Source: Nitriliruptoraceae bacterium (GTDB taxonomy: Bacteria > Actinomycetota > Nitriliruptoria > Nitriliruptorales > Nitriliruptoraceae). Taken from it: DNA of 36,418 bases. Under the pieces are notes generated by a model. The model had not been told where the DNA came from. It did not search any database and saw only the letters and a program-made list of their open reading frames with translations. The translations under genes were made by a program, and so were the position numbers. Positions 13,009-31,257 of this stretch are shown piece after piece (position 1 is the stretch's first letter; each line of letters begins with the position of its first letter). The stretch spans positions 1 through 36,418 of the forward strand of contig SLMP01000028.1 in the NCBI GenBank assembly GCA_007133465.1, written 5' to 3'.

Positions 13009-13045
13009 GGACCCCCCGCCAGCAGGTCGCCACGGAGCCGGCCAG

Positions 13046-13051
13046 TACGCT
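13046..13051 (+). promoter_or_regulatory. -10 box TACGCT, probable leaderless promoter of uvrC operon
   Basis: TACGCT is followed by 8 nt and the ATG of uvrC at 13060. There is no room for a ribosome-binding site between the expected transcription start and the ATG, so a leaderless mRNA is likely. Confidence 0.5.
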
Positions 13052-13059
13052 CGGACACG

Positions 13060-15045: not shown

Positions 15046-15956
15046 GCGCCCCGGATGGGCACGACTCCCCAGCCGACGACCTCGACCAGCCGAGCCGTCG
15101 GCCACAGATCCTGATCATCACCGGGATGTCCGGGGCGGGCCGCACCACCGCGGCGGACGTGATCGAGGATCTCGGCTGGTTCGTCATCGACAACCTGCCG
15201 CCGACGCTGATCGGGCGGGTCTCGGATCTGGCGTTCGCGCCGGGCTCCTCGGTCACCAAGCTCGGGGTCGTCGCCGACGTCCGCGGACGCGAGTTCTTCG
15301 CGCCGCTGGTCGACACGATCCGGGACCTGCGACGCAGCGAGTCGGACCTGCGGGTGGTGTTCCTGGAGGCGGACGACGGCACCCTCGTCCGACGCTTCGG
15401 CGAGACCCGACGGCGCCACCCGGCGGGCCACGACGCCGGCGTGCTGACCGGGATCCGTCGCGAGCGCCAGCAGCTCGTGGAGCTCCGGGGGCTCGCCGAC
15501 CTGATCATCGACACCACCGACCTCAACGTCCACGAGCTGCGGGCGCGCGTCTCACAGGTGCTGGAGGAGGAAGCGGCCCCGCTGCGGATCAACGTCATGT
15601 CCTTCGGGTTCAAGCGGGGCAGCCCGCGGGAGGCCGACCTGTTGCTCGACGTCCGGTTCCTGCCGAACCCGCACTGGGTCGAGGAGCTTCGGCCCCGCAC
15701 CGGTCGGGACGACGCGGTCCGGGACTACGTCTTCCGGCAGCCCGCGACCGGCCCGTTCGTCGGCGCCCTGGAGCACCTGCTCGACATCGTGGTGCCCGGG
15801 TACATGCAGGAGGGCAAGCGCTACCTGACGATCGCGATCGGCTGCACCGGCGGCAAGCACCGGTCGGTCGCCATCTCCGAATCGATCGGTGCGCACCTGC
15901 GCGACACCACCGACCTGCCCGTCACCGTCACCCACCGCGACCTGGGGGCCGAGTGA
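15042..15956 (+). CDS. rapZ: RapZ-type RNase adapter / P-loop nucleotide-binding protein
   Basis: RapZ-family proteins bind nucleotides. In E. coli RapZ senses glucosamine-6-phosphate and directs decay of the GlmZ sRNA; in Gram-positives the role is less clear and linked to envelope and competence. The protein has 304 residues. The N-terminal P-loop GMSGAGRT (28-35) carries Arg where most ATPases have Lys, as is usual in actinobacterial members. VIEDLGWFVIDNLPP follows, then the C-terminal domain with SFGFKRG and GCTGGKHRSV, the putative sugar-phosphate-binding pocket. It starts at GTG 15042, overlapping uvrC (GTGA), and overlaps yvcK the same way. The uvrC-rapZ-yvcK-whiA order is strongly conserved in actinobacteria, supporting the call. 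Confidence 0.95.
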   Translation: MSAPDGHDSPADDLDQPSRRPQILIITGMSGAGRTTAADVIEDLGWFVIDNLPPTLIGRVSDLAFAPGSSVTKLGVVADVRGREFFAPLVDTIRDLRRSESDLRVVFLEADDGTLVRRFGETRRRHPAGHDAGVLTGIRRERQQLVELRGLADLIIDTTDLNVHELRARVSQVLEEEAAPLRINVMSFGFKRGSPREADLLLDVRFLPNPHWVEELRPRTGRDDAVRDYVFRQPATGPFVGALEHLLDIVVPGYMQEGKRYLTIAIGCTGGKHRSVAISESIGAHLRDTTDLPVTVTHRDLGAE

Positions 15957-16912
15957 ACGGCCGGGAGCGTCGCACGCGACCAGCCGACGCGCTGTCGGGG
16001 CCGGGCGACGGGTCACGCGCGGTCGCGATCGGTGGGGGGCACGGCATCTCGCGCACGCTGCAGGCCCTGCCGCGCATCGTCGACCACGTGACGGCGGTCG
16101 TGACCGTCGCCGACGACGGCGGCTCGTCCGGTCGTCTGCGACGCGACCTCGACGTGCTCCCGCCGGGCGACCTGCGGATGGCCCTCACCTCGCTCGCGCG
16201 GGACCGGGACCTGGCCGACCTGATCGGCTACCGCTTCCAGCGTGGGGAGCTCGCCGGTCACGCGCTCGGCAACCTCGTGCTGGTGGCGCAGCAGGAGCTC
16301 AGCGGCGGCGACCTGGTCGCGGCGCTCGACCGGCTGTGTGCCGTGCTGCACGCGCCCGGGCGGGTGCTGCCCTGCGCCACCGTCCCGCTCACCCTCCTCG
16401 CGACGACGCCGGCCGGCCCGATCCGGGGCCAGACGGTGGTCGCCGCGACCGCACGGCTCGAGCGGGTGCGGCTCGACCCGGCCGACGCGCCGGCGACGCC
16501 GGAGGCCGTCCAGGCGATCGAGCGGGCCGACCTCGTCGTGCTCGGCCCCGGGTCGCTGTACACGAGCCTGCTCCCGAACCTGCTCGTCCCCGGGATCCGT
16601 GACGCGCTCGTGGCGCGAGCCGCCCCGCTCGTGTTCGTCGCGAACCTGCGGGAGCAGCCCGGCGAGACCGAGGGCCTCTCCCTCGCCGACCACCTGGCCG
16701 CGATCACCGCGCACGTCCCGGAGCTCCGGTTCGACGTGCTCGTGACCCACGACGGGCCCGCCCCGTCCGGACCGGGCCTGCCGTTGATCGTGGCACCGGG
16801 CGTGGCCGAGGCCCACGTCGGTCGGGTCGTCGCCGCCGACCTGCTCGACGGCGCGGACGGGCACGACCCGTCGGCGCTCGCTCGGGTGCTCGACCGCGTC
16901 CTGCGTGGCTGA
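15953..16912 (+). CDS. yvcK: YvcK/CofD-like gluconeogenesis factor
   Basis: YvcK proteins bind UDP-sugars and are needed for normal growth and cell shape on gluconeogenic carbon sources; the fold is that of CofD, a 2-phospho-L-lactate transferase. The protein has 319 residues from GTG 15953, which overlaps the rapZ stop. Diagnostic motifs are VAIGGGHGIS at about 24-33, VTVADDGGSSGRLR at about 50-63, LPPGDLR shortly after, then the GHALGNL region and VLGPGSLYTSLLPNLLV in the C-terminal half. The stop shares one base with the whiA ATG (TGATG at 16910-16914). An enzyme role for CofD itself is unlikely in this gene context. Confidence 0.95.
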   Translation: MNGRERRTRPADALSGPGDGSRAVAIGGGHGISRTLQALPRIVDHVTAVVTVADDGGSSGRLRRDLDVLPPGDLRMALTSLARDRDLADLIGYRFQRGELAGHALGNLVLVAQQELSGGDLVAALDRLCAVLHAPGRVLPCATVPLTLLATTPAGPIRGQTVVAATARLERVRLDPADAPATPEAVQAIERADLVVLGPGSLYTSLLPNLLVPGIRDALVARAAPLVFVANLREQPGETEGLSLADHLAAITAHVPELRFDVLVTHDGPAPSGPGLPLIVAPGVAEAHVGRVVAADLLDGADGHDPSALARVLDRVLRG

Positions 16913-17871
16913 TGGGTGCGAGCAGCTTCACCGAGGAGGTGCGCCAGCAGCTGGCCGGCCTCCCGCTCGCCGGTGACCGACAGGTCCACGCCGAGCTCTC
17001 GGCGCTCGTGCGCCTGGGCGGCAGCCTCACCGTCGCGGGGGAGGGGCGGCTCGGGCTGGAGATCAGCACCGGCTCGGGAGCGGTCGCCCGCCGGGCGTTC
17101 CAGCTGGTGCAGCACCGCTACGGCTCGCGACCGGAACTGCTCGTCCGTGCCCCGGGCGGCGTGCGCCGGCGCACGACCTACGGGGTCCGGCTGGGCGCCG
17201 GCGCCGAGCAGGTCGCCCGCGACCTCGGGATCCTCGACCCGGAGGGCCGCCTCGTCGACGGGGTGCCGCCGGACCTCACGGGCGCTCGCGGGGTCGCGTT
17301 CGTCCGGGGCGCGCTGCTGGCGGCCGGGTCGATCTCCGCGCCGGACCGGCCGCCGCACCTCGAGATCGGGTGCGGCTCCGAGAGGGTGGCGTGCGGCCTC
17401 GAGCGCCTGGTCGAGCGGGTCGTCGACGGGCACGTGACGGTGACCGCCGGGAGCCGGCCGCGGGTCGTGCTGAAGTCGGGGGAGCGGATCGGCCAGCTGC
17501 TCGTGGCGACCGGTGCGACGGGCGCGTTCCTGCGGTGGGACGAACGGCGGATGCGCCGGCAGGCGCGGGCTGACGCGGTCCGCCTCAGCAACGCCGACGA
17601 GGCCAACGTCCGGCGGGTCGTCGCGGCCGCGGCGCCGCAGGTCGCGGCGGCGGCCGCGCTGCTCGACTCGGAGCTCTGGGACACCCTCGACGACGACCTG
17701 CGTGACGTCGCCCGTGCCCGCCTGGCGAACCCCGAGGTGTCGCTGACCGAGCTCGGCATGCTCGTCACCCCACCCCTGACCCGCTCGGCGGTGTACCGCC
17801 GGCTACGGCGGCTGCAACAACTGGCGTCGGAGCTGCCACGACCTGGTGGAACCCGTCCGAGTGACCCCTGA
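16912..17871 (+). CDS. whiA: Sporulation/division regulator WhiA
   Basis: WhiA is a DNA-binding regulator found in nearly all Gram-positive bacteria; in Streptomyces it works with WhiB to trigger sporulation septation, and in others it affects division. The protein has 319 residues. The N-terminal half is a degenerate LAGLIDADG homing-endonuclease fold (FVRGALLAAGSISAP at about 130-144 marks one motif). The C-terminal helix-turn-helix spans about 272-306 (SLTELG... TRSAVYRRLRRL). The ATG shares a base with the yvcK stop, so translation is coupled. It ends the uvrC operon. The next promoter begins at the whiA 3' end: the -35 of gap overlaps the terminal codons and stop. Confidence 0.95.
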   Translation: MGASSFTEEVRQQLAGLPLAGDRQVHAELSALVRLGGSLTVAGEGRLGLEISTGSGAVARRAFQLVQHRYGSRPELLVRAPGGVRRRTTYGVRLGAGAEQVARDLGILDPEGRLVDGVPPDLTGARGVAFVRGALLAAGSISAPDRPPHLEIGCGSERVACGLERLVERVVDGHVTVTAGSRPRVVLKSGERIGQLLVATGATGAFLRWDERRMRRQARADAVRLSNADEANVRRVVAAAAPQVAAAAALLDSELWDTLDDDLRDVARARLANPEVSLTELGMLVTPPLTRSAVYRRLRRLQQLASELPRPGGTRPSDP

Positions 17872-18011: not shown

Positions 18012-19016
18012 ATGTCCGTCCGCGTCGCCATCAACGGCTTCGGCCGTATCGGCCGCAACCTGCTGCGTGCCGCCAAGAAGCTAGGGCTCGACCTCGAGGT
18101 CGTCGCCATCAACGACCTCACCGACGTCGAGACGCTCGCGCTGCTGCTGAAGTACGACAGCGTGCACGGCCGCTTCGACGGCACCGTGGAGACCGACGGC
18201 GAGAACCTCATCGTCGACGGCAAGGTGATCAAGGTGCTCTCGCAGCGCGACCCGGCCGAGCTGCCGTGGGGCGAGCACGAGATCGACATCGTGATCGAGT
18301 CGACCGGCTTCTTCACCAAGCGCGACGACGCCGCGAAGCACCTCACCGCCGGCGCCAAGAAGGTCCTGATCTCCGCGCCCGCCAAGGGCCCGGACGTCAC
18401 CTTCGTCCTCGGCGCCAACGAGGCCGACTACGACCCGGACAACCACGACGTCGTGTCGATGGCCTCCTGCACCACCAACTCGGTCGTGCCCGTCGCCAAG
18501 GTCCTGCACGAGACCTTCGGGATCTCCAAGGGCCTGATGACCACGATCCACGCCTACACCGGCGACCAGAACATCCACGACGCGCCGCACAAGGACCCGC
18601 GTCGCGCGCGTGCCGCCGCCGTATCGATCGTTCCGACCACGACCGGCGCCGCCCAGGCTGCCGCGCTCGCTCTGCCGGAGCTCGACGGCAGGCTCAGCGG
18701 GATGGCGCTGCGGGTCCCGATCCCGGACGGGTCGATCACCGACCTCACCCTGATCCTCGACCGTGACGTCACCAGGGAGGAGGTCAACGCCGCCATCAAG
18801 GAGGCGGCCGAGGGCGACCTCAAGGGCATCCTGCAGTACAGCGAGGAGCCACTGGTCTCGATCGACATCATCGGCAACCTGCACTCGTCGATCTTCGACG
18901 CGCCGTCGACCCTGGCGATGGGCAGCCTCGTCAAGGTCCTCGCGTGGTACGACAACGAGATGGGCTACTCGGCTCGCCTCGCCGAGGCGACCGTGTACAT
19001 GGGTGAGCGGCTGTAA
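18012..19016 (+). CDS. gap: Glyceraldehyde-3-phosphate dehydrogenase, type I
   Basis: The enzyme oxidises glyceraldehyde-3-phosphate to 1,3-bisphosphoglycerate with NAD in glycolysis. It has 334 residues. The Rossmann opening INGFGRIGRN is at 7-16, INDLTD at about 33-38 fits NAD rather than NADP preference, and the catalytic Cys 153 sits in SMASCTTN with His 180 in TTIHAYTGDQ. WYDNEMGYS near the C-terminus is typical. AGGAG at 17999-18003 gives 8-nt spacing to the ATG. It is followed by pgk after a strong hairpin. The glycolytic trio would normally run gap-pgk-tpiA; here pgk and tpiA are separated by an exporter pair. Confidence 0.98.
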   Translation: MSVRVAINGFGRIGRNLLRAAKKLGLDLEVVAINDLTDVETLALLLKYDSVHGRFDGTVETDGENLIVDGKVIKVLSQRDPAELPWGEHEIDIVIESTGFFTKRDDAAKHLTAGAKKVLISAPAKGPDVTFVLGANEADYDPDNHDVVSMASCTTNSVVPVAKVLHETFGISKGLMTTIHAYTGDQNIHDAPHKDPRRARAAAVSIVPTTTGAAQAAALALPELDGRLSGMALRVPIPDGSITDLTLILDRDVTREEVNAAIKEAAEGDLKGILQYSEEPLVSIDIIGNLHSSIFDAPSTLAMGSLVKVLAWYDNEMGYSARLAEATVYMGERL

Positions 19017-19040
19017 GGCCGTGCCCTGCTGACCACCCTT

Positions 19041-19071
19041 CCGGCCCTCCGTCAGCGCGACGGGGGGCCGG
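19041..19071 (+). terminator. Hairpin between gap and pgk
   Basis: CCGGCCCTCCGTC (19041-19053) pairs with GACGGGGGGCCGG (19059-19071) through 13 bp, one of them G-U, with a 5-nt loop. There is no T-run. It starts 24 bases after the gap stop and ends 20 bases before the pgk start. It is likely a partial terminator or 3' stabiliser that lets gap exceed pgk expression, because pgk has no promoter of its own that I can see. Confidence 0.6.
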
Positions 19072-19091
19072 GCCATGACGGAGACACGCTC

Positions 19092-20291
19092 GTGACCTCA
19101 CCACTGCTCGCGGGGGTTCCCACCCTCGCCGACCTCGATGCGTCGGGCCAGCGCGTGTTCGTCCGTGCCGACCTCAACGTCCCGCTGCGGGACGGTGAGG
19201 TGGCCGACGACCTGCGGGTCCGCTCGTCGGTCCCGACCCTGCGGCACCTCGTCGACCAGGGCGCCCGCGTCGTGGTCGCCTCCCATCTCGGCCGCCCGAA
19301 GGGCGCACCCGATCCCACCTCGTCGATGGCACCCGTCGGCGCGCTGCTCGGAGAGCTGCTCGGGTCCGAGGTCGTCATCGCGAGCGACGTGATCGGTGAC
19401 GACGCCCGGGCGAAGGCCACCGCGCTCGAGCCCGGTCAGGTGCTGCTGCTCGAGAACCTGCGCTGGGACGCCGGGGAGACCAAGAACGACGACGCGTTCG
19501 CCGACGCGCTCGCGAGCTTCGCCGACGTCTACGTCGACGACGCCTTCGGGGCGGCCCACCGCGCGCACGCGTCGATCAGCGGCATCCCGGCTCGCCTCCC
19601 CGGCTACGCCGGTCTCCTGCTCGAGCGGGAACTCGAGGTCCTCGGGGGCCTGCTCGCCGATCCGGCGCATCCGTACATCGCCGTCCTCGGCGGCGCCAAG
19701 GTCAGCGACAAGCTGACCGTGCTCGGCAACCTGCTCGAGCGCGTCGACGCGATCGCGGTCGGGGGTGCGATGGCCTTCACGTTCCTCGTCGGCGAGGGGG
19801 TCGACGTCGGCGCCTCGCGGGTGGAGACCGACCAGGTCGACACCGTGCGGCGGCTCGTCGCCGAGGCCCGCGACCGTGGGGTCGAGGTGCTGCTGCCGGA
19901 GGACGTCGTCGTCGCGGCCGAGTTCGCGGAGGAGGCGGAGCCGCAGATCGTGCGGACCGCAGAGATCCCCGGCGACATGATGGGACTCGACGTCGGCCCG
20001 GAGACCGCGGGCCACTACGCCGAGGCGATCAACCGGGCCGGCAGCGTGTTCTGGAACGGGCCGATGGGCGTGTTCGAGTGGGAGTCGTTCGCCAGCGGCA
20101 CCCGCACGGTCGCCCAGGCGATGGCCGCGACCTCCGGCTTCACGGTCGTCGGCGGCGGTGACTCCGCCGCCGCGATCCGGGAGTTCGGGCTCGACGACCA
20201 GGTCGACCACGTGTCGACCGGTGGTGGTGCCTCCCTCGAACTGCTCGAGGGCAAGGACCTGCCCGGCGTGGTCGCCCTGCGTCGCGCCTGA
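19092..20291 (+). CDS. pgk: Phosphoglycerate kinase
   Basis: It transfers phosphate from 1,3-bisphosphoglycerate to ADP in glycolysis. The protein has 399 residues, the usual length. The N-terminal substrate site includes VRADLNVPL at 24-32 and SHLGRPKG at 64-71. The ADP side includes VLGGAKVSDK, NGPMGVFE and GGGDSAAAI with STGGGASLE near the end. The GTG start at 19092 has a CGGAG 8 bases upstream. It is probably transcribed from the gap promoter through the hairpin at 19041. Its TGA stop overlaps the -35 region of the following exporter promoter. Confidence 0.97.
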   Translation: MTSPLLAGVPTLADLDASGQRVFVRADLNVPLRDGEVADDLRVRSSVPTLRHLVDQGARVVVASHLGRPKGAPDPTSSMAPVGALLGELLGSEVVIASDVIGDDARAKATALEPGQVLLLENLRWDAGETKNDDAFADALASFADVYVDDAFGAAHRAHASISGIPARLPGYAGLLLERELEVLGGLLADPAHPYIAVLGGAKVSDKLTVLGNLLERVDAIAVGGAMAFTFLVGEGVDVGASRVETDQVDTVRRLVAEARDRGVEVLLPEDVVVAAEFAEEAEPQIVRTAEIPGDMMGLDVGPETAGHYAEAINRAGSVFWNGPMGVFEWESFASGTRTVAQAMAATSGFTVVGGGDSAAAIREFGLDDQVDHVSTGGGASLELLEGKDLPGVVALRRA

Positions 20292-20317
20292 CGGACCCTG
20301 CCCCCTCGGGGTAAGGT
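20288..20317 (+). promoter_or_regulatory. Promoter of the ABC exporter pair (CTGACG - 18 nt - TAAGGT)
   Basis: CTGACG (20288-20293) overlaps the pgk stop codon and TAAGGT (20312-20317) is placed 18 nt later. This gives the exporter its own start near 20324 and a leader of about 95 nt. A short CCCC-TC-GGGG stem (20302-20311) lies inside the spacer. Confidence 0.55.
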
Positions 20318-20378
20318 GGTGGGCTGCCGTCCCGCACCGGCGGCAACCCGGCCCTCGTCGGCCCTCCACCTGGCGACG

Positions 20379-20403
20379 TCGCGCGCCGTCACGCCGCGCG
20401 CGA
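20379..20403 (+). promoter_or_regulatory. Leader hairpin abutting the exporter ribosome-binding site
   Basis: TCGCGCGC (20379-20386) pairs perfectly with GCGCGCGA (20396-20403) over a 9-nt loop. The 3' arm takes in the first two bases of GAGGGG (20402-20407), the likely ribosome-binding site for the ATG at 20420, so the stem could limit translation. Confidence 0.4.
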
Positions 20404-20419
20404 GGGGATCGTCCCGACC

Positions 20420-22303
20420 ATGTCCGTCTCGTCCGCCCCGCCCCCGCTGACCAGCGCCCTGGCCGTCGTACGCGCCGGCCTCGGCCTCGTCGTGCGGTTC
20501 GTCCGCGAGGCACCCTTGGCCTACGGGGTCGCGACGGTGGGGTCGGTGGCGTTCACCGCGGCCATCGTCGCCAGCGCCGTCGTGGTCGGATGGATCACCG
20601 ACGAGGTCGTCGTGCCGGTCCTGGCGGAGGGACAGCCCGTCGATGACCGCCTGCGGACCGCGGTGCTGCTGGTGCTCGGCGTCGCGGTGTGGAAGGCGGT
20701 CGGCATCACGATCCGGCGCACGGCCGCCGGCTGGCTGCAGTTCGGTGCCCAGACCCGGCTCCGCAAGCGGCTGATCGCCCACCAGCTCGGCCTGTCGCTG
20801 CGGTGGTACGGCCGCCGCGGCGTCGGCGACCTGCTGTCGGTGTCCGACGTCGACACCCGGCAGGCCACTTTCGTGCTCGCGCCGCTGCCGTTCGCGACAG
20901 GAGTGCTCGCCCTGTTGGTCGGCGCCTCGATCGTCATCGCGGTCACCGATCCGTGGCTCGGCCTGCTCGCGGTCCTGCTCCTCGTCGTGGTGGTCGGCAT
21001 CGACGTGCGGGGGTCCTGGTTGACCTTCGGGGCGATGGAGGAGGCGCAGCGTCGCCGCGGTCGCGTCGCCGAGGTGGCACACGAGTCCTTCGACGGCGCC
21101 CTCACCGTCAAGGCGCTCGGCCGTGAGGCGATGGAGACCCGGCGCTTCGCGGCCGCCGCCCTGCACCTGCGCGATCAGTTGGTCGCCGTCGGCAGGGTCT
21201 GGACCGGCTACAGCGCACTGACCGAGGGGCTGCCGGCGATCGGCACCGTCGTGGTGCTGGTCGTGGGCACCGCCCGCATCGCCGCGGGGGAGCTGACCCC
21301 CGGCGAGCTCGTCCGGGTCGCCTACCTGCTGTCCCTGCTCGCCGTACCGATCCGGCTGGTCGGGTACCTGATGTGGGACCTCGCGAACTCGACCGCCGGC
21401 TGGCGGCGGGTCGAGCAGGTGCTGGAGGTCACCGACCACGTCCGCCACGGCGAGCTCGCGCAGGTCGACGACGGGTCCGCCGCCGCCCTCGACCTCGCGC
21501 GGGTGGGCTTCGGCTACGAGCCGGACGCGCCGGTCCTGCGCGACCTCGACCTCGCACTGCCGCCGGGCCGGACGATCGCCGTCGTCGGCCCGACCGGCTC
21601 CGGCAAGTCGTCCTTGGCGTTGCTGCTCGCCCGCCTGTGGGACCCTGACACGGGCACGATCCACCTCGATGGTCGCGATCTGCGGGAGCTGTCCCCCGGG
21701 GTCCTCGCGTCCGAGGTCGCCTACGTCGCGCAGGACACGTTCCTGTTCGACGACACCGTCCGGGGCAACGTCGCGCTCCACCTCGACGTCCCCGACGCGG
21801 ACGTCTGGGCGGCGCTGCGCCTCGCCGACGCGGACGCGTTCGTCGCGGCCCTGCCGGGCGGCCTCGACACGCCGCTGGGGGAGCGGGGTGCGACGCTGTC
21901 GGGTGGGCAGCAGCAACGCATCGCCCTCGCCCGGGCGCTCGTCCGCCGCCCGCGCCTGCTGGTGCTCGACGACGCCACCTCGGCGGTCGACCCGAGCGTC
22001 GAGGCGACGATCCTGCGCGGCCTGCAGGCCGTCGCCCTGCCGTCCACGGTGGTGGTCGTCGCCTACCGCCGCGCCAGCATCGTGCTCGCCGACGAGGTCG
22101 TCTACGTCGATGACGGGCGGGTGATCGCCCAAGGGACCCACGAGCGTCTGCTCGCCGAGGTGCTCGGCTACGCGCGGTTGCTGCAGGCCTACGACCTCGA
22201 TGCGGCGGCACGTGCGGAGGAGGCGGCGGCCGGGGGGCACGTCCGCCGCATCGGCGACCGCGCCGGTCGCGGGCACCCGGACGGCTGGGAGGGCGCGCCG
22301 TGA
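20420..22303 (+). CDS. ABC exporter half-transporter A (degenerate-site subunit)
   Basis: A 627-residue half-transporter: six membrane helices in the first 330 residues or so, then a nucleotide-binding domain. Walker A GPTGSGKS is at 390-397 and the signature LSGGQ at 493-497 is canonical. The residue after Walker B, normally the catalytic Glu, is Asp 518 (LVLDDATSAVD), and the switch His is Tyr 549 (VVVAYRRAS). These changes are typical of one half of asymmetric heterodimers such as TM287/288 and BmrC/D. It overlaps the second half-transporter by four bases (GTGA). The substrate is unknown; a lipid or drug export role is common for the type. It lies between pgk and tpiA under its own promoter. 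Confidence 0.93.
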   Translation: MSVSSAPPPLTSALAVVRAGLGLVVRFVREAPLAYGVATVGSVAFTAAIVASAVVVGWITDEVVVPVLAEGQPVDDRLRTAVLLVLGVAVWKAVGITIRRTAAGWLQFGAQTRLRKRLIAHQLGLSLRWYGRRGVGDLLSVSDVDTRQATFVLAPLPFATGVLALLVGASIVIAVTDPWLGLLAVLLLVVVVGIDVRGSWLTFGAMEEAQRRRGRVAEVAHESFDGALTVKALGREAMETRRFAAAALHLRDQLVAVGRVWTGYSALTEGLPAIGTVVVLVVGTARIAAGELTPGELVRVAYLLSLLAVPIRLVGYLMWDLANSTAGWRRVEQVLEVTDHVRHGELAQVDDGSAAALDLARVGFGYEPDAPVLRDLDLALPPGRTIAVVGPTGSGKSSLALLLARLWDPDTGTIHLDGRDLRELSPGVLASEVAYVAQDTFLFDDTVRGNVALHLDVPDADVWAALRLADADAFVAALPGGLDTPLGERGATLSGGQQQRIALARALVRRPRLLVLDDATSAVDPSVEATILRGLQAVALPSTVVVVAYRRASIVLADEVVYVDDGRVIAQGTHERLLAEVLGYARLLQAYDLDAAARAEEAAAGGHVRRIGDRAGRGHPDGWEGAP

Positions 22304-24117
22304 GCGCCGACGCCACCTCGACGGCCCGACGGCGGTCGGCCGGGCCGCCACCTGCGGCGGAGCTGTCCGCCCCGCAGGCCGTGCTCGCCGCCAGTCGCGT
22401 CGCCCCGGCGATCCGGCGCGGGCTCGGCCTCACCCTGGTGCTCGCGGTGATCGGCACCGGCGGGCAGGTCGTCGTCCCGATCGCGGTGCAGCTGCTGCTG
22501 GACCGGGCCGTGCTGACCGGCAGCGCGATCGACGTCGCCGCGGTGGTGCGCGGCGGCGCCGTGGGGGTCATCGCGTTGCTGGTCGCGATGCTGGCCAACC
22601 GGACGTCGCAGTTCCGGCTCGTGAGGGCCGCGACCGCCGGCCTCGCGGAACTGCGCATCGCCGTCTTCCGCCACGTCCACGACCTGTCGGTGCTGCACGT
22701 GCAGGCGGAGCGGCGCGGGGCGCTGGTCGCCCGCGTCACCTCGGACATCGAGGCGATCACCCAGTTCCTCGAGTGGGGTGGGGTCGGCATGTTGGTCGGG
22801 GCGGCCCAGCTCCTGCTCGTCGTCACCGTGATGTTGGTCTACGACTGGCGGCTCGCCCTGCTGGTGGTCGTCACCGCCGTGCTCTACGCCCTGTTGCTGC
22901 TGCTCTTCCAGCGTTACCTGCGGCGTGCCTACGACGGGGTGCGGGTCAAGGTGGCGGCGTCCCTCGCGGCGATGAGCGAGGCGATCGCGGGGCTCCCGAC
23001 GATCCGGGCGTACGGCGCGGAGGAGCGCACACGCGAACGGGTCGACGGCGCGCTCGACGAGCAGTACCGCGCGGAGTTCCGCACCAGCGCGCTCGGCGCC
23101 GTGATGTTCTCGTCCGCGGAGGTGTTCGCCGCCTCGGTGACGGCGGGCGTGGTCGCCGCCGGGATCCTGCTCGGTGACACCGGCCTGACGGCCGGGCAGC
23201 TGGTGGCGTTCCTGTTCCTCGTCGCGCTGTTCATCGATCCGGTCCAGCTGCTCGTCGAGGTGCTCAACGAAGCGCAGACCGCGGCCTCCGGTTTGCGCCG
23301 GGTGCTGACCGTGCTGGAGACGCCCGCGGACGTGGCCGACCCGGTCGCCGGACGGCACCTGCCGCCCGGGCCCCTGTCCGCGACCTTCCGCGACGTGCGC
23401 TTCCACTACCCGACCGGCGAGGAGGTGCTCCACGGCCTGGACCTCCACCTCGATGCGGGGGCGCGGGTCGCGGTCGTGGGGGAGACCGGCTCGGGCAAGT
23501 CGACGTTCGTGAAGCTGCTGACGCGACTCATCGACCCGACGAGCGGGACGATCGAGCTGTCCGGCGTGCCGCTGCGGGAGGTCCGGTTCGCCTCGTTGCG
23601 TGACCGCGTCGTGTTCGTCCCCCAGGACGGGTTCCTGTTCGACGCGTCGTTGGCCGACAACGTCCGCTACGGCGCCCCCGAGGCGAGCGACGCCCAGGTG
23701 CTCGACGCCCTGGCGGCGCTCGGGCTGGCGTCGTGGGTGGCGAGTCTCCCCGCGGGGATACGGAGCCCCGTCGGGCCGCGCGGTTCGCGTCTGTCCGCCG
23801 GGGAGCGGCAGCTCGTGGCGGTGGCTCGCGCGTGGCTCGCCGGTCCCGACCTGCTCGTGCTCGACGAGGCCACCTCGGCGGTGGACCCGGCACTCGAGGT
23901 GCAGCTGCGGCGGGCGAGCGAGCGGTTGACGGCCGGCCGGACGAGCATCACCGTCGCGCACCGGCTGGCCACCGCGGAGGCCGCGGACGAGGTGCTGGTG
24001 CTGCATGACGGGCACCTCGTCGAGCGTGGCCCGCACGCCGCGCTGGTCGCGGCGGGCGGGGTGTACGCGGGCCTGCACGCCGACTGGGCACGCAGCAGCG
24101 GCGATCGCCGGAGCTGA
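22300..24117 (+). CDS. ABC exporter half-transporter B (consensus-site subunit)
   Basis: A 605-residue partner of the preceding gene, with six predicted membrane helices in the first 330 residues or so and a C-terminal nucleotide-binding domain. Walker A GETGSGKS has Lys 400, the Walker B is followed by the catalytic Glu 523 (LVLDEATSAVD) and the switch His 554 (VAHRLAT) is present. The signature is altered to LSAGE (498-502) instead of LSGGQ. Since each ATP site joins Walker A/B of one subunit to the signature of the other, this altered signature faces the partner's altered Asp 518/Tyr 549. One site is therefore degenerate and the other intact. The start is GTG 22300, overlapping the preceding TGA. 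Confidence 0.93.
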   Translation: MSADATSTARRRSAGPPPAAELSAPQAVLAASRVAPAIRRGLGLTLVLAVIGTGGQVVVPIAVQLLLDRAVLTGSAIDVAAVVRGGAVGVIALLVAMLANRTSQFRLVRAATAGLAELRIAVFRHVHDLSVLHVQAERRGALVARVTSDIEAITQFLEWGGVGMLVGAAQLLLVVTVMLVYDWRLALLVVVTAVLYALLLLLFQRYLRRAYDGVRVKVAASLAAMSEAIAGLPTIRAYGAEERTRERVDGALDEQYRAEFRTSALGAVMFSSAEVFAASVTAGVVAAGILLGDTGLTAGQLVAFLFLVALFIDPVQLLVEVLNEAQTAASGLRRVLTVLETPADVADPVAGRHLPPGPLSATFRDVRFHYPTGEEVLHGLDLHLDAGARVAVVGETGSGKSTFVKLLTRLIDPTSGTIELSGVPLREVRFASLRDRVVFVPQDGFLFDASLADNVRYGAPEASDAQVLDALAALGLASWVASLPAGIRSPVGPRGSRLSAGERQLVAVARAWLAGPDLLVLDEATSAVDPALEVQLRRASERLTAGRTSITVAHRLATAEAADEVLVLHDGHLVERGPHAALVAAGGVYAGLHADWARSSGDRRS

Positions 24118-24151
24118 CGGCCGGCCGGGACCGCCAGGTCGGGGGCAGGAC

Positions 24152-24157
24152 TAGGCT
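24152..24157 (+). promoter_or_regulatory. -10 box TAGGCT for tpiA
   Basis: TAGGCT lies in the gap between the exporter and tpiA, giving initiation near 24164 and a leader of about 35 nt with GAGGAG at 24187-24192 before GTG 24199. A -35 match is not evident. Confidence 0.5.
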
Positions 24158-24198
24158 CGGCCGCGACATCCCGACGACCCTCGTCCGAGGAGCCAGCC

Positions 24199-24972
24199 GT
24201 GAGCTCGCGCACCCCCGTCATCGCCGGCAACTGGAAGATGTACAAGGACCACCTGGAGGCGATCCAGCTGGTCCAGAAGCTGGCCTACCACCTCGAGGCG
24301 GAGGACTACGAGGACCAGGAGGTGGTGGTCTGCCCGCCGTTCGTGTCGCTGCGCTCGGTGCAGACGGTGATCCAGTCCGACGACCTGCCGATCGGCCTGG
24401 GCGCGCAGAACTGCCACCCGGAGGACGAGGGCGCGTTCACCGGCGAGGTGTCGGTCCCGATGCTGTCGCGCCTGGACGTCACCTACGTGATCGCCGGGCA
24501 CTCCGAGCGCCGCGCCCTGTTCGGCGAGAGCGACGCGGTCGTCAACGAGAAGGTGCGCGCGATCCAGCACCACGGGCTGCGACCGATCCTGTGCGTCGGC
24601 GAGAGCCTGGAGGAGCGCGAGGCCGGCCGCGCCGTCGAGGTCGTGGTCCAGCAGCTGCGCGGCAGCCTCGACGGGATCGCCATCGACGACCCCGAGGCGC
24701 TCGTGGTCGCCTACGAGCCGGTCTGGGCCATCGGCACCGGCCGGACCGCGACGCCGCAGGACGCCCAGGAGATGTGCGCCGCCGTGCGCGCGGAGGTCGC
24801 TTCCCTCTACGACCAGGCGACGGCCGACGGTGTGCGCGTGCAGTACGGCGGCAGCGTCAAGCCCGGCAACGTCAAGTCGCTGATGTCCCAGCCGGACATC
24901 GACGGCGCGTTGGTGGGTGGGGCGAGCCTGTCGAGCGAGGACTTCGCGCTGATCGTCCGCCACCGGCGCTGA
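24199..24972 (+). CDS. tpiA: Triosephosphate isomerase
   Basis: It interconverts dihydroxyacetone phosphate and glyceraldehyde-3-phosphate. The protein has 257 residues, typical length. Catalytic residues are all visible: Asn 11 and Lys 13 in AGNWKMYK, His 101 in AGHSERR and Glu 173 in AYEPVWAIGTG, with the phosphate loop in YGGSVKPGN and the closing GALVGGASL. The GTG start has GAGGAG at 24187-24192. It has its own -10 box and a terminator after it, so it is transcribed apart from gap and pgk. This differs from the compact gap-pgk-tpiA-secG order usual in actinobacteria. Confidence 0.98.
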   Translation: MSSRTPVIAGNWKMYKDHLEAIQLVQKLAYHLEAEDYEDQEVVVCPPFVSLRSVQTVIQSDDLPIGLGAQNCHPEDEGAFTGEVSVPMLSRLDVTYVIAGHSERRALFGESDAVVNEKVRAIQHHGLRPILCVGESLEEREAGRAVEVVVQQLRGSLDGIAIDDPEALVVAYEPVWAIGTGRTATPQDAQEMCAAVRAEVASLYDQATADGVRVQYGGSVKPGNVKSLMSQPDIDGALVGGASLSSEDFALIVRHRR

Positions 24973-25060: not shown

Positions 25061-25197
25061 TCCCACACCCGTACCTCGGCGCTGTGAGACGGTCCTACTC
25101 CACGGCTCGGGAGCACCTCCGAGGGGGGAGTCCTGGGCACGGGGGTGCGAACGCCACAGGTCCGAGGACCCCGCAGACCAGTTCAAGGAGTGAACAC

Positions 25198-26961
25198 ATG
25201 CGGTCACGCAAGCACCAGCACTGGCGCTGGTTGGTGATCCTCGCTGCCCTCTCGCTGGCGATCGCTGCCTGTGGTGGCAACGACGACCCGGCGGACGACG
25301 ACACCGAGGCACCGGAAACCACCGAGGAAGACACCGACGCCGACGCCGACGTCACCGACACCGAGGAGGACACGGCGACCGAGGAGGACCCGGACGAGAA
25401 CGGCGAGGCCACCGATGGCGGCACCGTGCTGTTCGGTGACGAGCAGGAGCCGACCATCCTCAACGGCTTCCTGATCGACGGCAACTCGCTGGTCACCTCG
25501 AAGGTCTTCAACAACGTCTTCGCCGGTGCCTACGTCATCCAGCCCGACTTCTCCTACGCCCCCTGGCTGATCGACGGCGAGGCCGAGTTCACCGAGGACC
25601 CCTTCGCGGTGACCTACACCATCCGTGACGACGCGGACTGGTCGGACGGCACGCCGATCTCCGTCGACGACATGATCTTCACCCTCGAGCTGTTCGACGA
25701 GGACGCCCCGCACGCCGACCAGGTCACGTCGCGGGCCGGCTACGAGCTGATCACCGACTTCGAGGTCGATGGCGACAAGACCATCACCTTCAACTTCGAG
25801 GAGCCCTACGCCGCGTGGCAGCTCCTGTTCTCCAACGTCCTGCCGGCGCACGTCCTCGAGGGTGAGGACTTCGAGACCGTCCTGAACGACGAGCTGCCCG
25901 ACGTGTCGAGCGGCCCGTACCTCTTCGAGTCGTGGGACCGCGGCACCCAGCTGCGCCTCGTCCGCAACGACGACTACTGGGACGGCGACGTCGGACTCGA
26001 CGAGATCGTGATGCGCTACGTGCCGGACACCACCACGCTGACCCAGCAGATGCGCGGTGGCGAGATCGACATGTACGACCCGCAGCCGCAGATCGAGCTG
26101 ATCGGTCAGCTCGACGAGGTCTCCGACCGCATCGAGTTCGAGGTCGGTCTGGGCCCGGTGTGGGAGCACATCGACTTCAACACCCTGGTGCCGGGTCTGG
26201 ACAAGGACTACGTGCGCCAGGCGATCGCGCTGGGCATCAACCGCCCGCAGATCGTCGAGACCCTGGTGCAGCCCGTCGACCCGGACGCCGAGGTCCTGCA
26301 GCAGCCGTTCTGGATGACCAACTCCGAGTTCTACGAGCCCACCTACGACCAGTGGGACCACGACCCGGACGCGGCCCGGCAGCTGCTCGAGGACAACGGT
26401 TGCACCGAGGGTGACGGCGGCATCTACGAGTGCGACGGCGACCGTCTCGCGTTCCGCTTCGGCACCACCGGCGGCAACGAGCGGCGTGAGCTGACCCAGC
26501 AGCTGGTCCAGGCGGACCTGGCGAACGTCGGCATCGAGATCACCATCGAGAACGACGAGGGCGCGACCTTCTTCGAGCGCCTCAACACCCCCGACAACTG
26601 CGACGGTGTCTGCGACTACGACCTCGCGCTGTTCGCGTGGGTGGGCTCGCCCGACCCGTCCGGCAACGCCAACATCTACGGTTGCGACGAGGACGACACC
26701 CCGCGGCCGCAGAACTGGACCGTGTACTGCGACGACGAGCTCACCTCCCTGATGGACGAGGCCAACTCGACGGTGGACCCCGACGACAACGCGGCGCTGT
26801 GGAACGAGGCCGCCGCGGTGATCGCCGAGGGCGTGCCGATCATCCCGCTGTTCCAGCAGCCGCAGCTGCTGGCGTGGGACAACACCATCAGTGGTCCGCA
26901 GCTCAACCCGACGAACCAGACCCAGTTCTGGAACTCGGCGGAGTGGGCCCGTACCCAGTGA
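25198..26961 (+). CDS. Peptide ABC transporter substrate-binding lipoprotein
   Basis: A 587-residue exported binding protein of the SBP_bac_5 (DppA/OppA) family that would deliver peptides or similar solutes to the permeases encoded next. AAGGAG at 25185-25190 with 7-nt spacing fixes ATG 25198. The N-terminus is basic, then hydrophobic, ending in a lipobox IAAC with the lipidated Cys 25. Residues about 26-75 form a tether very rich in Asp, Glu and Thr. The binding fold then begins with ILNGFLIDGNSLV. SDGTPISVDDMIFTLELF and the closing TQFWNSAEWARTQ are typical of the family. Several Cys pairs (NGCTEG/YECDG, NCDGVC, YGCDE/YCDDE) may form disulfides outside the cell. First gene of the five-gene importer. 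Confidence 0.93.
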   Translation: MRSRKHQHWRWLVILAALSLAIAACGGNDDPADDDTEAPETTEEDTDADADVTDTEEDTATEEDPDENGEATDGGTVLFGDEQEPTILNGFLIDGNSLVTSKVFNNVFAGAYVIQPDFSYAPWLIDGEAEFTEDPFAVTYTIRDDADWSDGTPISVDDMIFTLELFDEDAPHADQVTSRAGYELITDFEVDGDKTITFNFEEPYAAWQLLFSNVLPAHVLEGEDFETVLNDELPDVSSGPYLFESWDRGTQLRLVRNDDYWDGDVGLDEIVMRYVPDTTTLTQQMRGGEIDMYDPQPQIELIGQLDEVSDRIEFEVGLGPVWEHIDFNTLVPGLDKDYVRQAIALGINRPQIVETLVQPVDPDAEVLQQPFWMTNSEFYEPTYDQWDHDPDAARQLLEDNGCTEGDGGIYECDGDRLAFRFGTTGGNERRELTQQLVQADLANVGIEITIENDEGATFFERLNTPDNCDGVCDYDLALFAWVGSPDPSGNANIYGCDEDDTPRPQNWTVYCDDELTSLMDEANSTVDPDDNAALWNEAAAVIAEGVPIIPLFQQPQLLAWDNTISGPQLNPTNQTQFWNSAEWARTQ

Positions 26962-26998
26962 CACCCATCGCAGCACCATGCTGACGGTCGCGCCCGCG

Positions 26999-27016
26999 CC
27001 CCCGCTCACGCGGGGG
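26999..27016 (+). terminator. Hairpin after the peptide-binding lipoprotein gene
   Basis: CCCCCGC (26999-27005) pairs with GCGGGGG (27010-27016) over a TCAC loop. It lies 37 bases after the stop of the binding protein and is followed 21 bases later by a stronger hairpin. Confidence 0.6.
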
Positions 27017-27037
27017 GGTCGTGAGCCGCTAGCGTGA

Positions 27038-27069
27038 CCGGTGCCCGCCCTCTCGGGGGCGGGCACCGG
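27038..27069 (+). terminator. Perfect 13-bp hairpin between binding-protein and permease genes
   Basis: CCGGTGCCCGCCC (27038-27050) and GGGCGGGCACCGG (27057-27069) are exact reverse complements with a 6-nt loop, a very stable structure with no T-run. It ends 40 bases before the permease GTG at 27110. It probably attenuates read-through or protects the upstream message, giving more binding protein than permease. A TAGCGT at 27030-27035 could be a -10 box for an internal transcript that would start inside the stem. Confidence 0.65.
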
Positions 27070-27109
27070 CCCGTCCGAGAAGTTCCGGTCGTGGGGAGGG
27101 AACGACCCT

Positions 27110-28084
27110 GTGCTGACCTACGCGCTCCGGCGCTTCCTGATCTCGATCCCGATCATCATCCTCGCGACGTTCCTGATCTTCGGTGCCATCTCGCTGTCCG
27201 GGGACCCGCTGCAGGACCTGCGCCAGCAGCCGAACATCACCGCGGAGCAGATCGACCGGGTACGTGAACTGCGCGGGCTCGACGAGCCGTTCCCGGTGCA
27301 GTACTGGCGGTGGATCCAGCAGATCCCGACCAGCGGCTTCGGGGAGTACCTGCTCTCCCCGCGGCCGATCTGGCCCGATCTGCAGCGCGTGTTGCTCAAC
27401 ACCCTGCAGCTCGTGCTGCCGGCGGAGATCATCGCGTTCATCATCGCGGTCGCGCTCGGCGTCGTCTCTGCCAAACGCCAGTACAGCGTGTTCGACTACA
27501 CGACCACGACGCTGAGCTTCTTCGGCTACTCCATGCCCGCGTTCTGGTTCGCCCTGCTCTTGCAGGTCGCAGTGGTCCAGATCTTCTTCATCACCGGGGT
27601 GCGGATCTTCCCGATCGCGAACCTCTCGTCGGCCAACCCCGGGACCGGCCTCGCGTTCTTCCTCGACCGTGTCCACCACCTGATCCTGCCGATCGCGTCG
27701 CTCGCGATCTTCTCGGTCGCCAGCTACAGCCGGTACATGCGCGCCTCGATGCTCGAGGTGATCCACTCGGACTACGTGCGCACCGCCCGCGCCAAGGGCG
27801 TGTCCGAGCGCCGGATCACGATCAAGCACTCGATGCGCAACGCGTTGATCCCGACCATCACGGTCGCGGCGCTGTCCTTCGGCAACGTGGTGTCGGGCGC
27901 GATCGTGATCGAGACGGTCTTCGGTCTCGACGGCATGGGGCGGTACTTCATCGCCCAGCTCGGCCGCCGCGACCCGTACCCGATCATGGCATGGCTGTTC
28001 GTCATCGCGGTGGTGATCGTGGTCTTCAACCTCCTCGCCGACCTGATCTACGGCTACCTCGACCCGAGGATCCGCTATGACTGA
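27110..28084 (+). CDS. Peptide ABC transporter permease, DppB-like
   Basis: A 324-residue inner-membrane subunit of the peptide importer. The N-terminal LTYALRRFLISIPI is the usual first helix of DppB/OppB. Six helices follow, and the EAA loop that docks the ATPases is in SDYVRTARAKGVSERRITI with NALIP. The C-terminal FGLDGMGRYFIAQL and YLDPRIRYD are typical. GTG 27110 is chosen because GGGGAGGG at 27092-27100 precedes it by 9 nt and homology begins there; the frame is open to GTG 27041, inside the hairpin. It overlaps the next permease gene by 8 bases. Confidence 0.93.
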   Translation: MLTYALRRFLISIPIIILATFLIFGAISLSGDPLQDLRQQPNITAEQIDRVRELRGLDEPFPVQYWRWIQQIPTSGFGEYLLSPRPIWPDLQRVLLNTLQLVLPAEIIAFIIAVALGVVSAKRQYSVFDYTTTTLSFFGYSMPAFWFALLLQVAVVQIFFITGVRIFPIANLSSANPGTGLAFFLDRVHHLILPIASLAIFSVASYSRYMRASMLEVIHSDYVRTARAKGVSERRITIKHSMRNALIPTITVAALSFGNVVSGAIVIETVFGLDGMGRYFIAQLGRRDPYPIMAWLFVIAVVIVVFNLLADLIYGYLDPRIRYD

Positions 28085-29072
28085 CCAGGGCCGACCGACC
28101 CGTCGCGAACACGGCCTGCAGACTCCGGCCGACTTCCCGCCGACGCACGCGTCGGACGTGCACGACGAACGCGAGGTGCTGCTCGACGACGACTACAGCG
28201 ACGGGGCGCAGATCGAGGCGCGCAGCCAGTGGCAGTTGTTCCGGCGCAAGTTCCTCCGCCACAAGCTCGCGATGGGCAGCCTCGTCTTCCTCGTGATCAT
28301 CGGCATCGGGGCGTTCTTCGCCGAGCAACTCGCGCCCTACGGCTACGAGGAGATCGACGTCCTGCGGGCCAACACCGCGCCGACCTTCGAGGGTTTGCAC
28401 TTCTTCGGCACTGACCAGCTCGGGCGTGACTACTTCAGCCGGGTGCTGTACGGCACGCGTACGTCGTTGCAGGTGGCGGTCGTCGTCGCCTTGCTGTCGA
28501 CCGCGATCGGGACCGCGGTCGGCGCGGCCGCCGGCTTCTACCGCGGCTGGGTCGACTCGGTGCTGATGCGCCTCACCGACCTGGTGCTCATCCTGCCCGG
28601 GCTCGCGGTGCTGCTGGTGGCCGCCGCCCTGTTCGGGCAGGGCTCCCCACTGCGGATCGCCCTCATCCTCGCGCTGCTGTTCTGGGTCTCGCTCGCGCGC
28701 GTCGTGCGTGGGGTGTTCCTGTCGCTGCGGGAGATGGAGTACGTCCAGGCCGCCCGCGCGTCGGGTGCCAGCGATCTCCGGATCATGTTCCGGCACATGC
28801 TGCCGAACACGATCGGGCCGATCATCGTCAACCTGACGCTCGTGCTCGCCTCCGCCATCCTCGTCGAGGCGACGCTCGCCTTCCTCGGGTTCGGGGTCAA
28901 CCCGCCGATCCCCGCGCTCGGCAGGCTGATCAGCGACGGGCGCAGCTCGATGCAGTCGATGTGGTGGCTGATCATCATGCCGGGGGTGACCCTGGTGTCG
29001 ATCGCCTTGGCCATCAACTTCGTCGGCGACGGCTTGCGCGATGGTCTCGACCCGACCCAGCAGGAGACGTGA
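28077..29072 (+). CDS. Peptide ABC transporter permease, DppC-like
   Basis: A 331-residue second permease subunit. A polar, acidic N-terminal extension of about 50 residues precedes WQLFRRKFLRHKLAMGSLVF, the standard DppC/OppC first helix. The conserved FFGTDQLGRDYFSRVLYGTR follows the first periplasmic loop. The EAA docking loop is MEYVQAARASGASDLRI with HMLPN. It ends in NFVGDGLRDGLDPTQQ as expected for the family. The ATG overlaps the previous gene's end by 8 bases, so translation is coupled. A gap of 46 bases separates it from the ATPase gene. Confidence 0.94.
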   Translation: MTDQGRPTRREHGLQTPADFPPTHASDVHDEREVLLDDDYSDGAQIEARSQWQLFRRKFLRHKLAMGSLVFLVIIGIGAFFAEQLAPYGYEEIDVLRANTAPTFEGLHFFGTDQLGRDYFSRVLYGTRTSLQVAVVVALLSTAIGTAVGAAAGFYRGWVDSVLMRLTDLVLILPGLAVLLVAAALFGQGSPLRIALILALLFWVSLARVVRGVFLSLREMEYVQAARASGASDLRIMFRHMLPNTIGPIIVNLTLVLASAILVEATLAFLGFGVNPPIPALGRLISDGRSSMQSMWWLIIMPGVTLVSIALAINFVGDGLRDGLDPTQQET

Positions 29073-29118
29073 TGGGCCCCACCACCCCCGCTGTCCTCGC
29101 GCTGGGAGATCGCCGCCG

Positions 29119-30159
29119 ATGACCGAACCGCTGCTGTCGATCCGGGACCTCGTCACGGAGTTCGCGACCCCCGACGGGGTGGTCCACGCCGTCGACGGCG
29201 TGAGCTACGACGTCTACCCGGGGGAGACCCTCGGCGTGGTGGGGGAGTCCGGCTCGGGCAAGTCCGTCACGGTGATGAGCATCCTCGGGCTCATCCCGCA
29301 ACCACCCGGGCGCGTCGCCAACGGTGAGGTGCTGCTGGAAGGTCGCGACCTGCTGACGCTGTCCGAGCGCGAGATGCGCCTGGTCCGGGGCAAGGAGATC
29401 GCGATGATCTTCCAGGACCCGATGACCTCGCTCAACCCGGTCCTGACCGTCGGCGACCAACTCTCCGAGGCGATCGTCACCCACGACGCCGACATCGGTG
29501 AGGATGCCGCACGTGAGCGCGTGGTCGGGCTCCTCGAGCTCGTCGGGGTCCCGAACGCCGACGACCGCTTCGACCAGTACCCACACGAGTACTCCGGCGG
29601 GATGCGGCAGCGCGCGATGATCGCCATGGCGATCGCCAACCAACCGAAGGTCCTGATCGCGGACGAGCCCACCACCGCGCTCGACGTCACGATCCAGGCG
29701 CAGGTGCTCGAGGTCCTCCAGAAGGCCCAGGACGAGACCAACGCCGGCACCATCCTCATCACCCACGACCTCGGGGTCATCGCGGAGATGGCCGATCGGG
29801 TGGTCGTCATGTACGGCGGTCGGGTCGTGGAGAGCGGGACCGCGGAGGAGATCTTCCACTCCCCGAAGCACCCCTACACCCTCGGGCTGCTGTCGAGCCT
29901 GACCCGGCCCAACGTGGACCTCGAACGGCTCGAACCGATCCCGGGGCAGCCGCCGAGTCTCATCAACCTGCCGAGCGGTTGCTCCTTCCACCCTCGCTGC
30001 CACCTCGGCCAGGGCCGGGCGGTCTGTCGTTCGGAGGTGCCGCCCCTGCTCGAGCTGGGGGTCGGTCGGCGCTCCGCCTGCCACTTCCACGAGGAGATGT
30101 CGCAGGAGGTCGCACGGGTGGAGCAGGAGACCGGTGCGCACTTCGACGGAGAGCTCTGA
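29119..30159 (+). CDS. Peptide ABC transporter ATP-binding protein, DppD-like
   Basis: A 346-residue cytoplasmic ATPase. Walker A GESGSGKS has Lys 48, the Q-loop is [11 protein letters not shown], the signature is [12 protein letters not shown], Walker B is [11 protein letters not shown] and the switch His is in LITHDLG. The OppD/F C-terminal extension ends in a Cys cluster ([26 protein letters not shown]) that in related proteins can bind an iron-sulfur cluster. ATG 29119 with GGGAG at 29104-29108 is chosen; open frame to 29041 overlaps the permease and is not conserved. Its stop shares a base with the next ATG (TGATG). Confidence 0.94.
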
Positions 30160-31223
30160 TGTCCACCACCGCCACCGCCGCGTCGGAGCAGGACCTGCAC
30201 GCCCGGTCACCGCTCGGGACGGAGATCCTGCGGGTCGAGTCCCTGACGAAGCACTTCCCGATCCGTGGCGGGCTCTTCCGTCGCCAGGTCGGCGCCGTGC
30301 AGGCGGTCGACGACGTCAGCTTCGCCGTGCGTGCGGGCGAGACCGTCGGCCTGGTGGGGGAGTCGGGCTGCGGCAAGTCGACCACCGGCCGCTGCATCGT
30401 CCGCCTCCTGGACCCGACCGATGGTCAGATCTACTTCAAGGGCGTCGACCTCGCCGGGTTGACCTCGCGACGCATGCGCGAGCTGCGCCGCGAGATCCAG
30501 ATCATGTTCCAGGACCCGTACGCGAGCCTGAACCCCCGCATCTCGGTCAACGAGATCATCGGCGAGCCACTGCGGATCTTCGGCCGCTACCGCGGTGAGC
30601 ACAAGGGCAAGGAGCGCGTCGCGGAGCTGATGCGCCTCGTCGGTCTGAACCCGGAGCACGGCAACCGCTTCCCCCACGAGTTCAGCGGTGGGCAGCGCCA
30701 ACGCATCGGCGTCGCGCGTGCGCTCGCGCTCGACCCGCAGCTGATCATCCTCGACGAGCCGGTCTCCGCGCTCGACGTCTCGATCCAGGCGCAGGTCATC
30801 AACCTGCTCGACGAGCTCCAGGAGCGCCTCGGGCTCGCCTACCTGTTCATCGCGCACGACCTCTCGGTGGTCCGCCACCTGTGCGACCGGGTCGCCGTGA
30901 TGTACCTCGGCAAGATCGTGGAGTTCGGCACCAAGCACGAGATCTTCGACAACCCCACGCACCCCTACACGCAGGCCCTGCTGTCGGCGGTCCCGATCAC
31001 CGACCCACGGATGCGCGGCAAGCGTGAGCGCATCATGCTCGAGGGGGACGTGCCGAGCCCGTCCAACCCGCCCTCGGGCTGCCGCTTCCGGACCCGGTGC
31101 TGGAAGGCCGAGGAGATCTGCGCCACCGAGGTTCCGGAGCTCACCGACCGCTTCGGGCACGGTCATCCGAGCGCATGCCACTTCGCTGAGCCACGGGCCG
31201 TGCTGCGGGTGGATCCTTCGTGA
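30159..31223 (+). CDS. Peptide ABC transporter ATP-binding protein, DppF-like
   Basis: A 354-residue second ATPase of the importer. Walker A GESGCGKS has Lys 73, with Cys inside the loop as is usual for OppF/DppF. The Q-loop is [13 protein letters not shown], the signature [15 protein letters not shown], Walker [13 protein letters not shown] and the switch His is in FIAHDLSVV. The C-terminal Cys cluster ([26 protein letters not shown]) matches that of its partner. Both ATPase sites look intact. ATG 30159 overlaps the preceding stop by one base; the longer open frame from 29979 is antithetical to the partner's coding sequence. It closes the operon at a hairpin. Confidence 0.95.
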
Positions 31224-31231
31224 CCGAACGT

Positions 31232-31250
31232 CCGGCCCGCTCGGGGCCGG
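31232..31250. terminator. Hairpin between converging importer and PH-protein genes
   Basis: CCGGCCC (31232-31238) pairs with GGGCCGG (31244-31250) over a 5-nt loop, filling the 34-base gap between the stops of the DppF-like gene and the minus-strand PH gene. Being symmetrical, it may serve both directions. Confidence 0.5.
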
Positions 31251-31257
31251 CTCCTGG

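Follow-up and report, generated by a model that had tools for sequence, protein, structure and literature searches.

The window, that is the whole stretch of 36,418 nucleotides taken from a Nitriliruptoraceae bacterium (contig SLMP01000028.1), carries two adjacent genes coding for half-transporters, here named A and B, which very probably constitute a heterodimeric ATP-binding cassette (ABC) exporter of the TmrAB, TM287/288, BmrCD and MsRv1273c/72c kind, with one hydrolysing consensus site and one degenerate ATP-binding site. Both open reading frames (ORFs) were confirmed by ORF and motif reading, the start of B overlaps the stop of A in the sequence GTGA, and an exporter transmembrane region and an ABC ATPase were found by Pfam in A as well as in B. 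The paper on EfrCD gives two hallmarks of heterodimeric exporters and lists His or Gln as switch residue and Asp or Glu as catalytic residue (PMC4997860). The first hallmark, adjacent and sometimes overlapping genes that each encode a transmembrane domain (TMD) and a nucleotide-binding domain (NBD), is seen for A and B in the ORFs, motifs and Pfam matches and in their relatives, and the second, stated for most such exporters, is a degenerate ATP site beside a consensus one, a pattern seen in the motifs of A and B and conserved in the relatives.

The Walker A motif of A is intact, with Gly390, Thr392, Gly395 and Lys396 invariant and Ser397 almost so in 30 aligned sequences, and Gln438 is present according to the motif reading. 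Asp518 replaces the catalytic Glu and Tyr549 the switch His. B has GETGSGKS as its Walker A (residues 394-401) and LSAGE, two letters apart from LSGGQ, as its signature. A first-pass annotation of the window had reported these three changes, as well as the retention of Glu523, His554 and LSGGQ for the opposite site, and the motif reading confirmed all of them. It had also placed the three changes in a single ATP site, which is supported by homology (fold ranks and published trans geometry) and by conservation in relatives. In MsRv1273c/72c, one half supplies the Walker A, Walker B and switch of each ATP site and the other half supplies the signature (PMC12038006), and the same trans build is stated in general by a 2020 review (PMC7756269). 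Because the sites of solved heterodimers pair the Walker and switch motifs of one half with the signature of the other, Asp518, Tyr549 and LSAGE would share one site. To the hydrolysing consensus site, B would thus contribute its Walker motifs and switch and A its LSGGQ; to the degenerate site, A would contribute its Walker motifs, including Asp518 and Tyr549, and B its LSAGE. The degenerate site would bind ATP with little if any turnover and keep the NBDs partly engaged, and the consensus site would drive the cycle. The coordinates of these features are given in Table 1.

Table 1. Half-transporter genes A and B of the window and their ATP-site motifs
Feature	Coordinates	Strand	Basis
Half-transporter A, putative degenerate subunit, TMD-NBD, 627 amino acids, ATG start	20420-22303	+	ORF, motifs, Pfam ABC_membrane and ABC_tran; top solved folds MsRv1273c, TmrB, TM287
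A Walker A GPTGSGKS, residues 390-397, intact	21587-21610	+	Motif reading; alignment
A signature LSGGQ, residues 493-497, predicted to face the B consensus site	21896-21910	+	Motif reading; 84/84 rows
A Asp518 (LVLDD) replacing the catalytic Glu	21971-21973	+	Motif reading; 84/84 rows
A Tyr549 (VAYR) replacing the switch His	22064-22066	+	Motif reading; Tyr 80/84 rows, Ser 3, Ala 1
Half-transporter B, putative consensus subunit, TMD-NBD, 605 amino acids, GTG start	22300-24117	+	ORF, motifs, Pfam; top solved folds TmrA, TM288, MsRv1272c
B signature LSAGE, residues 498-502, predicted to face the A degenerate site	23791-23805	+	Motif reading; LSAGE, MSAGE or LSSGE in 80/80 uncut rows
B catalytic Glu523	23866-23868	+	Motif reading; 79/79 readable rows
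B switch His554 (VAHR)	23959-23961	+	Motif reading; 79/79 readable rows

By our arithmetic, three independent changes would share one of two sites by chance in 1 of 4 cases, so that the pair of the window alone is weak evidence and the weight lies on its relatives. A collection of genome contigs was scanned with A and the best 80 of 239 relatives were kept, all of them actinobacterial by title. The nearest named ones are seven Nitriliruptoraceae bins, which are 65-71 percent identical, and two bins with Actinomycetota as their title, which are 64-65 percent identical. B comes after A in 79 of these loci, and the remaining one (L064) stops before B; loci L040 and L041 look identical. The 84 rows of A, made up of the 80 loci and of the window and a second copy from the same genome, each counted twice, have Asp and LSGGQ without exception, and their switch position is occupied by Tyr in 80 rows, by Ser in 3 and by Ala in 1. 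In the 82 rows of B (78 loci from the set of 80, three rows of the window, one of them cut, and one row of the second copy) the signature reads LSAGE 73 times, MSAGE 5 times and LSSGE twice and is cut off in the other 2, and both Glu and His are present in 79 of 79 readable rows. Among the 79 A-B pairs obtained from 78 of these 80 loci and from the record of the window, 76 are fully uncut, and in each of these A carries Asp and LSGGQ with a non-His switch residue, and B carries Glu, His and an altered signature. As the A and B rows are nearly uniform, the triple change is a trait of the family. The second pair of A/B type in the source genome lies on contig C67 (approximately 26530-30239; locus L179) and shows Asp, Tyr and LSGGQ in one half and Glu, His and LSAGE in the other. 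A recent decay confined to the genome of the window was rejected, since the pattern is phylum-wide in the sample and is also found in this second pair.

The search was extended to the phylum using 60 genomes, 32 of which matched at 1e-60, and 21 relatives, and gave 60 stretches. Pooling of the new stretches with the earlier loci resulted in 193 loci with 292 half-transporters in which all motifs were readable, and from these 105 unique adjacent pairs were drawn, 68 from genome contigs and 37 from genomes, 29 of them outside the A/B family by score; the pair of the window itself is not among the 105, its records (L081 and L086) being cut. Site 1 was defined as the Walker B and switch of the first gene with the signature of the second, and site 2 as the Walker B and switch of the second gene with the signature of the first. 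A signature with SGG at letters 2-4 was regarded as unchanged, and the LSGGE of two partners was hence scored as such. All 105 pairs kept Glu, His and SGG at site 2, the signature letters being LSGGQ in 100, VSGGQ in 4 and LSGGE in 1. Site 1 showed at least one change in 104 of the 105, with Glu, His and signature all changed in 88; in the remaining pairs Glu and signature were changed and His kept (13), the signature only was changed (2), Glu and His were changed and SGG kept (1), or nothing was changed (1). With site 2 intact throughout and site 1 altered in all pairs except one, each change sits where the trans rule predicts it. All 89 pairs that have lost His have lost Glu as well, and 101 of the 102 pairs that have lost Glu also have an altered signature. 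Such a graded loss, read from the present-day letters, fits an order from signature to Glu to His, without proving it.

For a phylogenetic tree, the 105 pairs were thinned to 71 rows, and a quick method was used with Shimodaira-Hasegawa approximate likelihood ratio test (SH-aLRT) support only. On this tree the switch letter changes at least 9 times; the rows with Asp and Tyr are confined to one part, alongside 5 with Ser, 1 with Ala and 1 with His, and Gln, Arg and a single row with Tyr and Asn are located elsewhere. Twenty-two halves were without a partner, namely a fusion (L153), the duplicate L041, 12 rows of the B family, presumed to have lost their A partner through a split profile match, and 8 halves counted as unpaired. 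L147 and L149, which belong to those 12 rows, and L179 show the usual pattern by motif. The 8 unpaired halves lie outside the A/B family and are canonical, with Glu, His and either LSGGQ (7) or LSGGE (1), and a copy on contig C81 of the genome of the window, for which no partner was found, is canonical too. The fusion L153 (1759-5553, minus strand), from one genome of the phylum, is a single open frame of 1265 amino acids in which an A-like half with Asp, His and LSGGQ precedes a B-like half with Glu, His and LSAGQ. We infer that A and B form a heterodimer, and this fusion and the gene overlap bear indirectly on a physical 1:1 pairing; the direction of transport would be export.

AlphaFold2 models of the two halves, with a mean predicted local distance difference test score (pLDDT) of 81.8 for A and 81.5 for B, match solved exporters along almost their full length, and both halves thus have the type I exporter fold. 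Fold ranks 1-5 for A were occupied by chains of MsRv1273c, TmrB and TM287 and ranks 1-10 for B by chains of TmrA, TM288 and MsRv1272c. The first half-transporters matched by the sequence profile of A were the TM287 chains, and those matched by the profile of B were TmrA, followed by MsRv1272c and TM288; TmrA also came first when B was used as a single sequence. The identities of 3qf4 chain A (TM287) and 8wcx chain A (MsRv1273c) were deduced from the chain lengths and from how the other chain is named. The subunit correspondence rests on ranks, the printed residue alignments having covered P-glycoprotein types and plant relatives. By fold rank, and largely by sequence profile, A is the counterpart of the degenerate subunit and B that of the consensus subunit in the three solved heterodimers.

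The first of these, MsRv1273c/72c of Mycobacterium smegmatis (PDB 8wcx, 8wcw and 9iqg), is itself an actinobacterial heterodimer with Asp497 in the degenerate half and Glu553 and His584 in the consensus half (PMC12038006). By fold, A fits its chain A best and B its chain B. However, the identity is 26-30 percent over the listed chains, its switch residue is Gln528 instead of the Tyr of A, and its cargo is isoniazid, which it exports (PMC12038006), whereas A/B have no assigned substrate. TmrAB of Thermus thermophilus (PDB 5mkk and 6raf) has one degenerate site (PMC5192220), a canonical Walker B in TmrA and a C-terminal zipper (PMC7756269); by fold, B is matched best by TmrA, and TmrB ranks second for A, although the identity is about 30 percent. 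The likeness to TM287/288 and BmrC/D asserted in the first-pass annotation is likewise supported, as sites of this kind have been published for both. TM287/288 of Thermotoga maritima (PDB 3qf4 and 4q4a) has Asp for Glu in one half and a signature other than LSGGQ at that site (PMC5216877), and TM288 is found at fold ranks 3 and 4 for B, although the identity is about 25 percent. In BmrCD of Bacillus subtilis, Asp500 of BmrC stands against Glu592 of BmrD (PMC10632425). The membrane portion of A, when searched, matched YheI at a rank below TmrB and above TM287. We take YheI to be BmrC. However, no BmrCD chain was found among the best 50 fold matches of A and one was found at rank 47 for B. The degenerate site of human TAP1/TAP2 combines Walker B and H-loop deviations with an altered signature, and that of yeast Pdr5 has Tyr in its H-loop, although Pdr5 differs in domain order and has lost the Walker A Lys (PMC7756269), which A retains as Lys396. 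According to the same review, every human degenerate site has an altered signature, replacement of Glu by Asp is the second commonest degenerate-site change, and H-loop changes often join Walker B changes, as in TAP (PMC7756269).

Several points weigh against a heterodimer with one hydrolysing and one degenerate site. The predicted template modelling score (pTM) is 0.61 for A and 0.53 for B, so that the domain arrangement is loosely fixed, and residues 519-522 of the A model, which adjoin Asp518, have a pLDDT below 50. The margins between fold ranks are modest, the partner chains 8wcx_B and 4q4j_A appearing at rank 15 for A and rank 11 for B, respectively. The 105 pairs are mutually related and were sampled by their likeness to A, and the minimum number of changes on the 71-row tree is 5 for His/not-His, 3 for Glu/not-Glu and 2 for SGG/other. 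Furthermore, A and B reach no NCBIfam equivalog cut-off (MsbA, HepA, CydCD, SmdAB and others) among the best 25 of 180 matches for A and of 178 for B, the top scores being 296 bits against a cut-off of 725 for A and 343 against 602 for B, and no substrate is thus assigned. Finally, Asp may still hydrolyse ATP slowly. In MsRv1273c/72c, the E553Q mutant lost much of its ATPase activity and the residual activity was ascribed by its authors to Asp497, whereas D497N had no significant effect (PMC12038006), and the Asp of TM287/288 made no measurable contribution to hydrolysis (PMC5216877). Hydrolysis at the A site at a physiologically relevant rate, via Asp518 and despite Tyr549, is therefore considered unlikely. 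By analogy with TAP, whose degenerate site retained ATP after turnover (PMC12422388), the A site may instead retain ATP and turn it over slowly.

The degenerate site could also be a decaying remnant without a role rather than a specialised ATP-holding site. The presence of Ser or Ala instead of Tyr in 4 of the 84 A rows is what a loosened constraint would permit, but A shows no variation at Lys396, Gln438, Asp517 and Asp518 across 30 sequences, B shows none at Ser499, Ala500, Gly501 and Glu502 across 24, and Tyr persists over a deep part of the tree, which makes such a remnant quite improbable. That the two adjacent genes encode separate homodimers, one with Asp/Tyr and the other with LSAGE in both sites, is highly improbable and was rejected: homodimeric half-transporters do exist, and A as a single sequence meets two of them, Sav1866 and MsbA, ahead of TmrB and of any other half-transporter, but the strict A-B pairing with gene overlap, the placement of the changes always in site 1 (104 of 105 pairs), the fused relative and the canonical state of the 8 unpaired halves all argue against them, and an A dimer would be without catalytic Glu and switch His.

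The A/B pair is located between pgk and tpi and after gap, in a gap-pgk-tpi run from 18012 to 24972 (NCBIfam names), in a window with 72 percent G+C belonging to a draft genome of 2.77 Mb in 174 contigs. pgk and tpi match two parts of a bifunctional NCBIfam model below its cut-off, and tpi and gap also match a model above cut-off. Eleven more distinct loci (L001-L008, L010, L184 and L189) have a pgk neighbour, about 1.1 kb separating it from the A frame in L184, and 10 of the 11 have a tpi neighbour, L003 ending before it; L183, L185 and L186, which by their length seem to be the same contigs as L002, L004 and L005, were not recounted. Neither neighbour was found in L009 and L011-L080 (0 of 71) or in the stretches L187, L188 and L190-L193, L187 coming from the same family as the window. 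From its distribution over these loci, the exporter pair looks like a lineage-limited insertion in a glycolytic gene run. Nothing on a pgk/tpi context of an exporter was found in the literature among the best 10 of 70 matches. Downstream of tpi, from 25084 to 36171, lies a cluster for a peptide-type ABC importer (NCBIfam, most matches below cut-off), with two Opp-like permeases (27041, 28077), two Opp/Dpp-like ATPases (29041, 29979) and an Opp-like binding protein (34168); the ORF at 25084 resembles a binding protein by eye and matched no NCBIfam model at 1e-40. The region upstream of the gap-pgk run (57-17871) contains uvrB, a DrrA-like ATPase just under cut-off, uvrA, rapZ and whiA.

A literature search for LSAGE together with ABC transporter gave no match, and no Asp-Tyr-LSAGE pair was found in the titles and abstract openings of the matches listed (20 of 37, 20 of 1,375, 10 of 44 and 8 of 8) from the literature on such exporters, in which motif letters are often given in figures only and of which subscription journals were mostly outside the search. 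Since sites of this kind have been published for TAP, MsRv1273c/72c, TM287/288 and BmrCD, and a Tyr in the H-loop for Pdr5, the finding is an ordinary one: A/B is very probably an ordinary asymmetric heterodimeric ABC exporter, conserved in many actinobacteria. Locally new, but minor, are the retention of Tyr throughout much of a deep clade of actinobacteria and the position of the pair between pgk and tpi, which was seen only near the lineage of the window. A well-conserved actinobacterial family is thereby added to the known asymmetric exporters, and within this sample the loss of the degenerate site is graded.

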